A stretch of 64,000 nucleotides of DNA from Phycisphaerales bacterium. GTDB taxonomy: Bacteria > Planctomycetota > Phycisphaerae > Tepidisphaerales > Tepidisphaeraceae. Of the stretch, positions 434-5,325 are shown one piece after another. Numbering within the stretch: position 1 is the first letter of the stretch; each line of letters opens with the position of its first letter. Both the position numbers and the translations under genes were made by a program. The notes beneath the pieces are model-generated. The model was not told the origin of the DNA. It searched no databases and saw only the letters and a list, made by a program, of their open reading frames with translations. Where the stretch lies: contig JAQGHM010000127.1 in assembly GCA_028291615.1 (NCBI GenBank), forward strand, positions 1 through 64,000, written 5' to 3'.

Positions 434-458
434 TCCTGTTCCATGAACGGCAAGAAAC

Positions 459-491
459 AGGCCCGGTCGGCAATCATCGCCGATCGGGCCT
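459..491. terminator. bidirectional terminator hairpin
   Basis: A 13-base stem with one G-T mismatch position (459-471 with 479-491) and a 7-base loop lies between two convergent genes (ends at 433 and 531). Read on the minus strand the stem is followed by CTGTTTCTTG, a fairly T-rich stretch; on the plus strand by TTGTC. It probably terminates the Met/Cys-rich gene and may serve both. Confidence 0.7.
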
Positions 492-530
492 TGTCACTTC
501 GCTGATCAACGCAATCGCCGTCGCCCCGCG

Positions 531-1028
531 TTACATCATCATGCAGCACATCGGCATGCCGTTCATCATCACGCAGCACGTGCACCCGGGCATCATCATG
601 CTCTTCATGCAGTCGCAGCACGCCTGAATCATTTTCTCGCAGTTCTTGTCCCCGCTGGTGCACGTGATCGTGCATCCCATATTCATCATCTCAACCTTGC
701 ACATCCCCATCATCCCCACGTTGCACAAGCACATCGGCATGCCGTTCATCATCATGCAGCACGAGCACATGCCGTTGGCCATCATGCTCATCAAGTTGGC
801 CATCATGGCTGCGCCGGTCTTGTCCTCGCTCGTGCAGGTCATCTTCATTCCGCCCGGACACTTCTCCATGGCGATCGTACAGCGCGGCGCCATCATCATG
901 GCGGGCATGTTGCCCATCATCATGCCCGGCATCATGCCGCCCATGGGCATGTTCATCATCCCCATGTTGCCCATCGGCATGCCCATCCCAGTCGTCATTC
1001 CGCGATCGGTCATCATTCCAGTGGTCAT
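531..1028 (-). CDS. Met/Cys-rich putative metal-binding protein, 165 aa
   Basis: This is an extreme composition protein: 53 methionines and 20 cysteines among 165 residues. The first 46 residues are almost only Met, Gly, Asn, Pro, Thr and Ala. From residue about 49 there are two diverged copies of a Cys unit, one containing CSCCMMMNGMPMC and the other CTCCVMMNGMPMCC, each preceded by a TCTS(E/G)DK element. There is no signal peptide. The start is secure: AAGGAG lies about 7 bases upstream of the ATG, and the hairpin at 459-491 follows the stop. Clustered thioether and thiol ligands suggest binding of soft metals such as Cu(I) or Ag(I), which is inference. The antisense reading is less likely because it lacks a start signal and is rich in hydrophobic and His residues as expected from reversed Met/Cys codons. 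I know of no named family. Confidence 0.75.
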   Translation of the reverse strand: MTTGMMTDRGMTTGMGMPMGNMGMMNMPMGGMMPGMMMGNMPAMMMAPRCTIAMEKCPGGMKMTCTSEDKTGAAMMANLMSMMANGMCSCCMMMNGMPMCLCNVGMMGMCKVEMMNMGCTITCTSGDKNCEKMIQACCDCMKSMMMPGCTCCVMMNGMPMCCMMM

Positions 1029-1362: not shown

Positions 1363-1579
1363 GTGACCGATGACTCAACCAACCGCTCGACCGCATGTTG
1401 CCCTGCGAGCTTCGCACCGCGAAGCAACCCTCACCGCCGGGCAATGGTTTTGCTGTATGTCGGCAGCGGCAATCGCGCCGCTCGCCTGGCAGCAGGGTCT
1501 CTATCAACTCGCTTATCAACGCGCAGTCGAATCGGTGCACGCAGAGCAACTCAGCCGCCACGAGCCGAGTTGGAACTGA
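1363..1579 (+). promoter_or_regulatory. leader with tandem cysteine codons and a hairpin
   Basis: The 5' region of the transcript is about 280 bases long before the XRE start at 1597. A reading frame from ATG 1370 to 1579 has tandem Cys codons TGC-TGT at 1451-1456 (context WFCCMS). A second frame from GTG 1363, in frame with the XRE gene, has TGT-TGC at 1396-1401, directly followed by a perfect 7-base hairpin GCTTCGC-ACC-GCGAAGC (1409-1425). Cys-rich leader peptides control sulfur genes in actinobacteria by ribosome attenuation. A similar role here fits the downstream sulfonate importer but is inference, and I cannot tell which frame is translated. Confidence 0.35.
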
Positions 1580-1596: not shown

Positions 1597-2097
1597 ATGT
1601 CCGCCAAAGAAGCCCCCTATCGCGAATCGATCGATTCGATCCTCGCCAAAAACCTGGTGGCCGCACGCGTCATCGCGGGGCTGACGCAGCACGATCTGGC
1701 CACCGCCGCGGGAATTTCCCGCGCCACGGTCGCGCAACTGGAAACCGGCTCCAGCGATCCGCGGCTCTCCACCGTGGTCGACCTGGCGCGCGCATTAGGC
1801 GTAGCCCCAATGGTGCTGCTGGCCGGCATTCCCGAAGTACAAGCCCTCGCCGCGCTTGGAGACGGGCCGGGCGACCACCGCCTGCACGTTTCGCCGCGCG
1901 ACTTGGTGCGCCTTCGCGATTACGTCGCCAGCGGCATGCTCAAAGACCGCGTTCGCGCCGCTCGCCTGGGCGCAGCGGTCGCCCGCTCCGTCGCCGACGA
2001 GCATCAGGGCATCGCCATCACCGCCGGCCTCTTCTCTGCTACCCTTCCCGGCGCCGGGACCGTAGTCGGCGCGGAGTTGGGGAGACTACTCGAGTAG
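1597..2097 (+). CDS. XRE-family transcriptional regulator
   Basis: A 166-residue cytoplasmic DNA-binding protein. Residues about 18-75 form a classic XRE helix-turn-helix (RVIAGLTQHDLATAAGISRA, then VAQLETGSSDPRLSTVVDLARAL). The C-terminal half (about 95-166) is a helical region ending in a hydrophobic Gly-rich segment (SATLPGAGTVVGAELG) and could be a sensor or dimerisation domain. The ATG at 1597 is chosen; the frame is open upstream to GTG 1363, but that extension is Arg/Ser-rich and looks like non-coding leader. The gene sits between two operator-like sites and immediately ahead of an ABC importer, so it probably controls that cluster and perhaps itself. The effector is unknown. Confidence 0.85.
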   Translation: MSAKEAPYRESIDSILAKNLVAARVIAGLTQHDLATAAGISRATVAQLETGSSDPRLSTVVDLARALGVAPMVLLAGIPEVQALAALGDGPGDHRLHVSPRDLVRLRDYVASGMLKDRVRAARLGAAVARSVADEHQGIAITAGLFSATLPGAGTVVGAELGRLLE

Positions 2098-2130: not shown

Positions 2131-2185
2131 AATTGCATTCATAAGTCGTTTGTGCTTTAATCCGCACGAACGGGAAAGGCACCCC

Positions 2186-3250
2186 TTGTCCGAGCACACA
2201 CCCACAAAACGTCCTGGAACCGTCTACCTCGTCGGCTTTGTCGCCCTCGTGGCCGTCGCCGTTGGCCTTTGGCAGTTCTCATCCAAAGGAGGTGCGAAAA
2301 CCTCCAAGCCCGTTTCCGAAGTTCGCATTGGTTACTTCGCCAACCTAAGTCACGCCCAAGGCGTGCTCGGCGTCGCTTCGGGCGAATTCGAACAGGCCAT
2401 CTCACCAGCCAAGCTCAAGACCAAAGTCTTCAACGCCGGCCCTTCGCTCGTCGAGGCGCTCTTCGCCGGTGAGATCGACATCGGCTACGTCGGCCCCGGC
2501 CCCGCCCTCGCTGCCCATGCCCGCAGCAAGGGCCAAGGCATCCGCGTGATCGCCGGGGCGGCCTCGAACGGCGTGCTGATCGTCGCCCGCAAAGATTCCG
2601 GCATCCGCACCCTCGCCGATCTCAAGGGCAAGCGCATTGCCACGCCGCAGCACGGCAACACCCAGGACATCGCCGCCCGCCACTATCTCGCCGCCGAGCT
2701 CGGCCAGAAGGATGACAACAACATCCTGCCGATCCCCAACGCCGAGCAATCGGGCATGATGGATCGCGGCCAGATCGATGCCGCCTGGGCCCCCGAGCCC
2801 TGGGGCTCGCGCCTGGTCGCTGAGACCGGCGCCACCATCGTCGCCGAAGAAAAGGACCTCTGGCCGAGCAAGCAGTTCGCGCTGGCGATCGTCGTCACCA
2901 CGCCCGACTTCCTCCGCGACCATCCCGATGTAGTCGCCAAAGTGCTAGGCGTCCACCGCGCCTGGACGGCGCGCCTCGTGGCCAACCCCAAGACGCATCT
3001 CCCCCAACTCGGAACCGCGCTCCTCGCGCTCACCGGCAAAAAGCTCCCGCCCGGCGTCCTCGACTCCGCAATCACCCGCGTCACCTTCACCGACGACCCG
3101 CTTCCCGACACCTTCAAGACCATGGGCCAGTGGACCTACGATCTCGGCTTCGAGCAGCAACCCGCGCGACTTGAAACGCTCTTTGACTTAAGCGTGCTCA
3201 AGGAGCTGGAGAAGTCCCCGAAACAGGAGGCTGTGAATGTCCCTCGCTGA
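2186..3250 (+). CDS. ABC transporter substrate-binding protein, sulfonate/nitrate type
   Basis: A 354-residue SsuA/TauA/NrtA-like binding protein that presents an anion (sulfonate, taurine or nitrate) to the importer. The start is TTG at 2186, preceded by GGGAAAGG; an in-frame TTG at 2150 has no ribosome-binding site. An N-terminal hydrophobic segment (VYLVGFVALVAVAVGLWQF, about residues 13-31) is followed by SSKGG with no lipobox Cys, so it may be a signal anchor. The mature domain begins EVRIGYFANLSHAQGVLGVA and contains GEIDIGYVGPGPALAA and DAAWAPEPWGSRL, typical of this NMT1/SsuA-like fold. The stop overlaps the next gene by 14 bases. A sulfonate substrate is favoured by the Cys-codon leader, which is indirect evidence. 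Confidence 0.85.
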   Translation: MSEHTPTKRPGTVYLVGFVALVAVAVGLWQFSSKGGAKTSKPVSEVRIGYFANLSHAQGVLGVASGEFEQAISPAKLKTKVFNAGPSLVEALFAGEIDIGYVGPGPALAAHARSKGQGIRVIAGAASNGVLIVARKDSGIRTLADLKGKRIATPQHGNTQDIAARHYLAAELGQKDDNNILPIPNAEQSGMMDRGQIDAAWAPEPWGSRLVAETGATIVAEEKDLWPSKQFALAIVVTTPDFLRDHPDVVAKVLGVHRAWTARLVANPKTHLPQLGTALLALTGKKLPPGVLDSAITRVTFTDDPLPDTFKTMGQWTYDLGFEQQPARLETLFDLSVLKELEKSPKQEAVNVPR

Positions 3251-4130
3251 AACTTTCGCGCCGGCCCTGGCGTCATCCAACGGCGCTTCGCGCCGCGGGC
3301 GCCTGGTGCTTGAGCACATCAGCAAGGATTTCCCTGGATCAACCGTTCCCGCGCTGCGCGACGTCAGCCTCACCTGCGAGCCGGGTGAGTTTGTCGTCGT
3401 CGTCGGCCCCAGCGGCTGCGGCAAGAGCACGCTGCTCAACCTCGTCGCCGGTATGCTCACGCCCGAAGAAGGCCGCCTCACCCTCGACGGCCAGGCCGTC
3501 CGCGGCCCGCATCCCGAGCGCACCATGGTCTTCCAGGACCACGGCCTCTTCCCCTGGCTGACCGCCGCACAGAACATCGCCTTCGGCCTGAAGATGGCCG
3601 GCGTCCCCCGCGCCAAGCGCGACCAGCGCGTCGAGGCCGCACTGGAAATGGTCCACCTCCGCCGCAGCGCCGACAAACTCGTTCACGAGCTCTCCGGCGG
3701 CATGCGGCAGCGCGTCGCCATCGCCCGCGCCCTGGTCATGGACCCCGCCGTCCTGCTGATGGATGAACCGTTCGCGGCACTGGACGCACAGAACCGCACG
3801 CTCCTGCACGAGCAACTTCAGGAACTCTGGGTCGCCACGCAGAAGACGGTCCTCTTCGTGACCCACTCGGTGAACGAAGCCGTGCGCCTGGGCGATCGCG
3901 TCGTGGTGCTGCACGCCCATCCCGGACGGATCCGCCGCGAATTCCGCGTCGGCCTGCCCCACCCACGGAATTTCGACAGCCCGGAGATCGCACAGTTAGT
4001 TCGCCTGGTTCGCCGGGAGATCGAAGACGAGGTCAATCGTGTCAACGCGCAAACCGACGAAGAACTTTGGAAGCCTAAAACGCCTGCTGATCTGGATCGT
4101 CATTCTGTCGGCATGGGAGGCGGCATATAG
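3237..4130 (+). CDS. ABC transporter ATP-binding protein, SsuB/TauB type
   Basis: The ATPase subunit of the importer, 297 residues. Walker A is GPSGCGKST (about residue 57), the Q-loop is VFQDHGLFPW, the ABC signature is LSGGMRQR, Walker B is VLLMDEPFAALD, and the H-loop is VTHSVNEAV. The arrangement FQDHGLFPWLTAAQNIAFGL is characteristic of the nitrate/sulfonate/taurine class. The gene overlaps the binding-protein gene by 14 bases and the permease gene by 92 bases. The last 30 residues, encoded in the overlap, look unlike the family, so the functional domain probably ends near residue 270. Confidence 0.93.
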   Translation: MSLAETFAPALASSNGASRRGRLVLEHISKDFPGSTVPALRDVSLTCEPGEFVVVVGPSGCGKSTLLNLVAGMLTPEEGRLTLDGQAVRGPHPERTMVFQDHGLFPWLTAAQNIAFGLKMAGVPRAKRDQRVEAALEMVHLRRSADKLVHELSGGMRQRVAIARALVMDPAVLLMDEPFAALDAQNRTLLHEQLQELWVATQKTVLFVTHSVNEAVRLGDRVVVLHAHPGRIRREFRVGLPHPRNFDSPEIAQLVRLVRREIEDEVNRVNAQTDEELWKPKTPADLDRHSVGMGGGI

Positions 4131-4938
4131 GACGATCGGCTGGAAGCCATGGGAATTCCCCGCGCCCAGTCACGTCGTCGATGCCGCCGCGGGGATGCTG
4201 AACATCCCGCTCGCGCTCGGAGAGCCACTGCACAAAGGCTGGCCGCTGGTCTTGGAGGACACGGTCGGCGTCCTCATCCCCTCGGCGCGACCCGCTAACG
4301 CGCCGTCAAGACACGTCTTCACCAGCCCGCTCATCATCGCCAACCTCGTCAGCGGTGTGCGCCTTATCGTCGGTTTCGTAATCAGCATAGTGCTCGGCGG
4401 CGCACTGGGACTGGCGATGTGGCGCTGGATCGAGCTCGATCGACTACTCGGCCCGGTCTTCCTCGGCCTGCAGACGCTCCCGAGCGTCTGCTGGGTGCCG
4501 CTGGGCATTCTAACGTTCGGCATCAACGAGCGCGGCGTACTCTTCGTGCTGGTGATGGGAAGTTTCTTCGCGATCGCGATCGCGCTGCGGGATGGGCTGC
4601 GCGGGATTCCGCCGCTTTACCAGCGCGCGGGGCTGATGCTCGGAGCGCGCGGGTGGCGGCTTTATCGTTACGTCTTGATCCCCGCCAGCCTGCCCGCATT
4701 TGCCAGCAGCCTTCGCCAAGGCTTCTCATTCGCATGGCGCTCGCTGCTGGGCGCGGAACTGATCCTGGCGGTCGAGCACAAAGGCTTGGGCTTCCTTCTC
4801 GCGACCGGCCGCGATTTCTCCGATGTCGCCAAGGTGGTTGCGGTGATGATCGTGATGGTGATGATCGGCATGCTGGCGGACCGGTGGATTTTCGCGAAAC
4901 TGCAGGCAGCGGTGCATCGCCGGTTTGGGCTGGAATGA
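4039..4938 (+). CDS. ABC transporter permease, SsuC/TauC type
   Basis: The membrane subunit of the importer, 299 residues with about six membrane segments. The BPD_transp_1 features are present: the EAA loop appears as RAGLMLGARGWRLYRYVLIPASLPAF and the C-terminal helix as VAVMIVMVMIGMLADRWIFAKLQ, split here by position (about 195-220 and 268-290). The GTG at 4039 is required to keep the first helix (LKRLLIWIVILSAWEAAY), so the 92-base overlap with the ATPase gene is real. Residues about 50-85 form an extra Pro/Ala-rich stretch not usual in SsuC. Confidence 0.88.
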   Translation: MSTRKPTKNFGSLKRLLIWIVILSAWEAAYRTIGWKPWEFPAPSHVVDAAAGMLNIPLALGEPLHKGWPLVLEDTVGVLIPSARPANAPSRHVFTSPLIIANLVSGVRLIVGFVISIVLGGALGLAMWRWIELDRLLGPVFLGLQTLPSVCWVPLGILTFGINERGVLFVLVMGSFFAIAIALRDGLRGIPPLYQRAGLMLGARGWRLYRYVLIPASLPAFASSLRQGFSFAWRSLLGAELILAVEHKGLGFLLATGRDFSDVAKVVAVMIVMVMIGMLADRWIFAKLQAAVHRRFGLE

Positions 4939-4956: not shown

Positions 4957-5325
4957 ATGCCAACGACAAAAACCACAACGCTGACGACCAAGCCCGAACT
5001 TGAGATTCTTGCGGGCCGGATCGTAAAGGGGATGAGCTTTAACGAACAGGTCTGGGCCGTCTGCGCCCGCGTCCCCAAGGGGAAGGTAACGACCTACGCC
5101 TCGATCGCCCGCAAGCTCGGCACGCAAGCCTACCGCGCCGTCGGCAACGCAATGAACAAGAACCCGTATGCCCCCCGCGTCCCCTGCCACCGAGTAGTCG
5201 GCAGCGACGGCTCGCTGACCGGCTTCGCCCAGGGCCTGGAGAAAAAGAAACGCCTGCTCAAAGCCGAAGGCGTCCCCTTCGTCAACGGCAAGGTCGATCT
5301 GCAGCAGAGCGCGGCCGAACTTTAA
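4957..5325 (+). CDS. methylated-DNA-protein cysteine methyltransferase family protein
   Basis: A 122-residue MGMT/Ogt-type protein that transfers alkyl groups from O6-alkylguanine to its own Cys. The active-site motif is VPCHRVVGSDGSLTGFA near residue 75, with Cys in PCHRV, and the DNA-binding helix appears as VPKGKVTTYASIARKLG. The RNase-H-like N-terminal domain of Ada/Ogt is missing, so it consists of the catalytic domain only, like many short family members. The start at 4957 follows GAGGAG closely. It begins 18 bases after the permease gene and may be read through from it, although no functional link is evident. Confidence 0.9.
   Translation: MPTTKTTTLTTKPELEILAGRIVKGMSFNEQVWAVCARVPKGKVTTYASIARKLGTQAYRAVGNAMNKNPYAPRVPCHRVVGSDGSLTGFAQGLEKKKRLLKAEGVPFVNGKVDLQQSAAEL

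Follow-up and report, generated by a model that had tools for sequence, protein, structure and literature searches.

A 165-residue protein built to an extreme degree from methionine and cysteine, encoded near the start of the window (the whole 64,000-nucleotide stretch of Phycisphaerales DNA analysed here), is, to judge from the alignment of its homologues, a member of a real protein family with conserved cysteine positions under purifying selection, and the genes found beside its relatives provide good support for placing the family in sulfur metabolism. The function favoured here, tentatively and at somewhat less than an even chance, is that of a cytosolic reserve or sink for sulfur amino acids, since this reading explains the methionine load, the trade-off between cysteine and methionine, and the sulfur genes in the neighbourhood. 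The gene and the structure at its 3′ end are:

531 to 1028, minus strand: gene for the Met/Cys-rich protein (165 aa), the sole open reading frame to fit the original prediction (which named no strand), with 26 complete family members and dN below dS
455 to 495, minus strand: strong RNA hairpin 3′ of the stop codon, a possible terminator (fold −31.7 kcal/mol, z = −4.2)

Of the residues in the translation, 53 are Met and 20 Cys; Phe, Trp, Tyr and His are all absent. Its Met+Cys fraction (0.442) is the highest among the window's 206 open reading frames with a length of 100 aa or greater, where the runner-up reaches 0.156 and the median is 0.032, bearing out the original prediction of a composition far beyond the normal. 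The good ribosome-binding site that had also been predicted is present as AAGGAG immediately 5′ of the ATG, with AAGGAGATCACGA preceding the start codon. The predicted terminator is upheld in part: minus-strand positions 505-445, 3′ of the stop codon, form the hairpin listed above followed by a U-rich stretch, whereas a simple terminator pattern scan returned nothing after the gene. No signal peptide is visible, and the location of the protein is presumably cytosolic.

A scan of contigs, at one genome per species, with the window protein returned 17 loci, 16 in records whose titles name Planctomycetota or a group within it (Singulisphaera acidiphila, Paludisphaera, Aquisphaera, Isosphaeraceae, Phycisphaerales and other MAGs) and one in a Verrucomicrobiota MAG. 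Whole-genome searches identified the family in 4 of 61 closely related genomes (with the window's own counted), in 5 of 392 genomes across the phylum, in 10 of 150 for one family (one of them, L048, merely a weak match to a different protein) and in 4 of 26 for the window's own family, low counts that mark the protein as rare and patchily distributed. The loci total 28, comprising 26 complete members (25 Planctomycetota and the Verrucomicrobiota MAG) and the partial copies L012 and L017, with repeat contigs counted once (L002, L010 and L011 from three close-relative genomes, recognised by the length of the contig and the position on it; L018 by BLAST identity in the phylum search); record names indicate two copies per genome in two cases (L013 with L014; L009 with L012).

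The homologue search proposed in the original prediction has thus yielded 26 complete members whose cysteine positions align, and the core evolves under constraint, with dN/dS values for five close pairs of 0.004/0.257, 0.030/0.235, 0.039/0.402, 0.049/0.227 and 0.047/1.11 (ratios of 0.016 to 0.22); the L004/L015 pair is less clear (dN 0.103, dS 0.161). An absence of homologues with conserved positions, together with an absence of coding constraint, had been named as the outcome that would overturn the prediction; the conserved cysteines and a dN far below dS are clearly the reverse. The existence of homologues and a dN well below dS also identify the frame as the coding one, and an artefact of frame is ruled out, as had been argued. 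At E ≤ 1, neither Pfam nor NCBIfam contains a family that matches the window protein or the relatives L038 and L043. Origins as a plasmid gene or a defence system were considered and rejected, a search with the L038 protein giving no match on plasmids and PADLOC giving none for the 26 members; the accessible portions of the Planctopirus limnophila expression literature (PMC10632474, PMC12785394) hold nothing on a gene of the family.

An AlphaFold model built with the 26-row alignment (pTM 0.66) divides the protein into three parts:

894 to 1028, minus strand: disordered Met-rich N-terminal tail, residues 1-45, with 20 Met and no Cys (pLDDT <50 for residues 1-26 and 28-41)
717 to 893, minus strand: unit 1, approximately residues 46-104, predicted ββαββ (strands 51-57 and 60-66, helix 70-82, strands 88-94 and 97-102; pLDDT about 87-95)
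534 to 716, minus strand: unit 2, approximately residues 105-165, predicted ββαββ (strands 109-115 and 118-124, helix 128-144, strands 149-155 and 158-164), a duplicate of unit 1

The core is accordingly predicted to fold as two ββαββ units joined by a short linker, with a mean pLDDT of about 87-95 over residues 51-165 and, in both alignment and model, a conserved Asn-Gly between strands three and four of either unit. The proposal that the two cysteine units are diverged duplicates is confirmed by a comparison of their profiles (E = 3.4e-13, probability 97.9). Foldseek returned no solved structure in the PDB at E ≤ 0.001 for the core model, the best VIA-align superposition having Z 5.4 over 88 residues at an rmsd of 3.5; the best PDB sequence match (E 0.087), to a coronavirus papain-like protease, is driven by cysteines and was taken as chance. 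Among members the tail can be as short as 24 or as long as 94 residues, the longest belonging to L011 (744-1385), where it is Met-rich with repeated NPMMGM units.

A remote relationship is suggested, though suggested only, to a separate family of two-repeat Planctomycetota proteins (L048, 2556-3293, minus strand, and L052-L057), which could be an ancestor or relative of the Met/Cys core. The two families share a β-hairpin-helix module, a G...TS-D...Q motif and a colinear profile match (probability 44, E 2e-4, against 0-0.1 for column-shuffled controls), while another profile comparison gave a probability of 32 and E 5e-4, and a single sequence just 3.5. In contrast to the Met/Cys family, the L048-type proteins show no enrichment in Met or Cys, and the confident AlphaFold model of L048 has β-hairpin-helix modules with different surrounding elements, the second hairpin of each unit being missing; it has no PDB match at E ≤ 0.001. 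Proteins of this hairpin-helix family were matched in 8 of 199 genomes, one of them weakly, and in L053 the repeats are fused to a DsrE domain.

Across all 26 members of the Met/Cys family, Cys and Met together make up 26-48% of the core, ranging from Met-rich members (35-39 Met, 17-21 Cys) to Cys-rich members (1-9 Met, 30-34 Cys). The two counts run opposite to each other (r = −0.91 across the 26 members, whose common ancestry makes them non-independent), and the commonest exchange is that between Cys and Met (1519 pairwise differences, 9.2%). Cysteine is found in at least 22 of the 26 at 16 positions (50, 57, 65, 80, 100, 102, 110, 123, 130, 137, 138, 149, 151, 152, 161 and 162), spaced as CC, CxC and CxxC, and in every member at six of these (65, 123, 138, 151, 161 and 162); many Met positions of the Met-rich members are occupied by Leu, Val, Ile, Thr or Gln in Met-poor ones. 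The fixed cysteines and the replaceable methionines together indicate a conserved Cys scaffold carrying a lineage-specific Met load.

Within the window, a small open reading frame, a regulator and an ABC importer are arranged divergently from the gene:

1202 to 1217, no strand: CTATAGGA-type palindromic site in the interval separating the Met/Cys gene from the small open reading frame, from a motif search
1330 to 1345, no strand: CTATAGGA-type palindromic site 5′ of the small open reading frame, from the same search
1370 to 1579, plus strand: small divergent open reading frame (69 aa) with C-terminal Y-x-x-A-Y and terminal Asn; counterpart at 16 of the 28 loci of the family, one of them doubtful
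1597 to 2097, plus strand: XRE-type (HTH_3) regulator (PF01381, 1.7e-13), with homologues adjoining the relatives L002 and L010
2116 to 2131, no strand: third CTATAGGA site, 5′ of the importer operon, from the motif search
2150 to 3250, plus strand: aliphatic-sulfonate-type ABC substrate-binding protein (possible TTG start at 2186)
3237 to 4130, plus strand: importer ABC ATPase; best model a taurine ABC ATPase, under its equivalog cut-off
4039 to 4938, plus strand: importer ABC permease (PF00528, 4.1e-15)

The adjacent sulfur-import cluster of the original prediction is borne out by the substrate-binding protein, which passes the cut-off of the TIGR01728 SsuA_fam model (207.4 bits against 163.5). 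The importer operon is followed by a gene for a protein with a methylguanine-DNA methyltransferase DNA-binding domain (4957-5325, plus strand; PF01035). CTATAGGA alone has 5 matches, distributed over three places of the window, where 0.14 would be expected, and TAHWYCTATAGGA has exactly three in the 6.9-Mb assembly, all of them here, two in the gap that separates the small open reading frame from the Met/Cys gene and one before the importer; this pattern was derived from the same three places, so that only its absence elsewhere is informative. With up to one mismatch allowed the motif has 10 genome matches against 18 for a reversed control, and only the exact motif is therefore telling. The Met/Cys gene, the small open reading frame and the importer may be co-regulated through the shared motif, whose presence before a sulfonate importer suggests that the Met/Cys gene is switched on under the same circumstances. 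One other palindromic near-match to CTATAGGA (L069, 6773; G000:C113:14772) lies before genes that by eye resemble those for a porin, ArsR and PstS, and as the sole such site beyond the window it gives a wider sulfur regulon no support.

The small open reading frame represents an unannotated family, found in the window and at 15 other loci, in which the stretch Y-x-x-A-[YF] is conserved and Asn mostly terminal (15 of 16 relatives end in Asn; the doubtful case is L016). It has no Pfam or NCBIfam match and evolves faster than the main gene, with dN still below dS; at L038, L044 and L046 it lies downstream of the main gene and convergent with it. A profile of the family (A2) matched 1 of 392 genomes yet missed G424, whose counterpart (L039) was recognised afterwards by eye, so that the small open reading frame need not be confined to Met/Cys loci.

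Sulfur genes recur beside the relatives. Cysteine synthase exceeds its NCBIfam cut-off at L038, L039, L041 and L044 and was identified at L046 in a search of its genome (G518), and a cystathionine beta-synthase at L014 falls just under its cut-off (505.5 bits against 510.25); CysA including its C-terminal domain is present at L041, and OscA-like genes, below cut-off and with the stop codon counted in two of the matches, occur at L039, L041, L042 and L047. Cysteine dioxygenase (PF05995) adjoins L008, L009 and L013, where its partner, separate or fused, is an FAD-NAD(P)-binding protein (L008 4549-6549, L009 5343-7668, L013 5361-7303; the partner assigned by PF13454 at L008 and L013 and by BLAST grouping at L009). 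Rrf2 regulators lie at 9 of 28 loci (L004, L007, L008, L009, L014, L015, L038, L044 and L046), those at L007, L008, L009 and L015 assigned by BLAST grouping alone; the neighbouring Rrf2 proteins pass the superfamily cut-off, and their best equivalog is CymR (NF047409), at 91.6 and 78.1 bits against a cut-off of 195.

A sulfur enzyme, importer or OscA-like gene is thus found at 12 of 28 loci, the window included, or at 15 of 28 when Rrf2 is counted; the remaining 13 (L002, L003, L005, L006, L010, L011, L012, L016, L017, L018, L040, L043 and L045) show neither in the DNA covered, several of them being on short contigs, with family libraries run on part of the neighbours. Within 10 kb, in 15 genomes, cysKM was found in 5 (0.13 expected), OscA-like genes in 4 (0.03) and Rrf2 in 3 (0.15), although G372, G499 and G518 belong to one genus, so that the independent count is smaller than these figures.

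A protein constructed from Met and Cys beside genes for sulfur import and cysteine synthesis might therefore be a sulfur reserve, or alternatively a holder of metal. As a reserve or sink, the protein would be a compact body of two ββαββ units, with many positions given to Met or Cys and usually a disordered Met-rich tail, at loci whose genes would take up sulfur and would produce, interconvert or degrade cysteine; surplus cysteine and methionine would be parked in it, which would also hold free cysteine low, and proteolysis would return both when sulfur is short. The sulfur reserve raised in the original prediction is strengthened as to its link with sulfur, for which the neighbours of the relatives speak strongly, although such a link is no proof of storage. 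The 16 near-invariant cysteines, six of them in 26 of 26, argue against a reserve, because selection on composition only should allow them to drift. A further difficulty is that, if the motif serves to repress the gene when sulfur is plentiful, the gene would be switched on when sulfur is scarce, against a simple store; were it expressed with the sulfonate importer at a time of sulfur shortage, it would be a paradox to build a store out of sulfur. Weighing the support for sulfur against the rivals and this paradox leads to the tentative grade given at the outset.

Bacterial stores are known for carbon, phosphate, nitrogen and iron, and the seeds of plants hold sulfur amino acids in 2S albumins and delta-zein. 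These Met-rich seed proteins are eukaryotic, and no Pfam match connects the Met/Cys protein with them. A sulfur-amino-acid reserve would fill a gap among the bacterial stores, as a sulfur counterpart of cyanophycin. More tentatively still, it may be the first dedicated bacterial protein reserve for sulfur amino acids, a ββαββ scaffold loaded to capacity with Cys or Met and working in concert with sulfur import and the synthesis of cysteine; the literature search found, in the portions of the sources available, no bacterial protein described as such a reserve. The Pyrococcus iron-sulfur storage protein IssA is a sulfur-responsive store (PMC5524996); unlike the Met/Cys protein, it has one Cys per monomer, stores thioferrate and is formed of another domain. 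Cys-rich planctomycete wall proteins with YTV domains have also been described (PMC10632474); Pfam gave no match of any kind to the window protein, though its models may not include one for YTV.

The strongest competitor, unlikely but a serious one, is a soft-metal store, in which the lattice of Cys and Met in a pre-folded scaffold would bind many Cu(I) (or Ag, Hg) ions, and the cysteine genes nearby would be present because the protein needs much cysteine. The 16 near-invariant cysteines with their CC, CxC and CxxC spacing speak for this reading, and a Cu(I)-type store accounts for them better than a reserve or sink does; Cu(I) would tolerate the exchange of Cys for Met, and the lack of aromatic and His residues in the window protein agrees with it. 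Met-rich members are a poor fit for Zn or Cd, and Met-rich segments lacking both His and a visible signal peptide are an unusual style for a copper protein. No copper, silver or other metal-handling gene was recognised in the part of the neighbours that was scanned, as the original prediction had observed for copper and silver, and sulfur genes stand there instead.

The sulfur context is nevertheless compatible with a role in metal binding, since the loss of the Rrf2 regulator CymR, which with CysK represses cysteine-forming genes in Bacillus and Staphylococcus, raised copper sensitivity in S. aureus (PMC2869319). The copper storage proteins Csp1 and Csp3 (the latter cytosolic; PMC7558416) resemble the Met/Cys protein in being small, Cys-dense and pre-folded, and are stores, as it would be on this reading. 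They are four-helix bundles lined with Cys, whereas the core here is predicted as ββαββ twice (pLDDT about 87-95), uses Met heavily and has no recognised copper genes nearby. The bacterial metallothioneins SmtA and MymT are likewise high in Cys with CC/CxC spacing; the Met/Cys protein differs in being Met-rich and in having two folded units predicted without metal, and it matches no curated metallothionein family in Pfam or NCBIfam at E ≤ 1. If it is a metal store, its fold would be a new one for binding metal densely through thiols and thioethers, with ligands switching between Cys and Met.

An improbable alternative is a thiol or persulfide buffer, in which reactive sulfur would be evened out by paired cysteines bearing sulfane sulfur or disulfides. 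The conserved CC pairs, the cysteine dioxygenase adjoining three members, the CysK nearby and the DsrE domain in L053 of the possible remote relatives are all in keeping with this, but the enrichment in Met is left unexplained and the remote relationship is weak (probability 32-44). Least probable by far is low-complexity drift of a Cys-rich protein, with its Met excess arising by slippage in ATG repeats and with no function of its own: the variable tail, repetitive in L011, could have arisen in this way, while for the core the purifying selection, alignability across classes and confident predicted fold rule it out.
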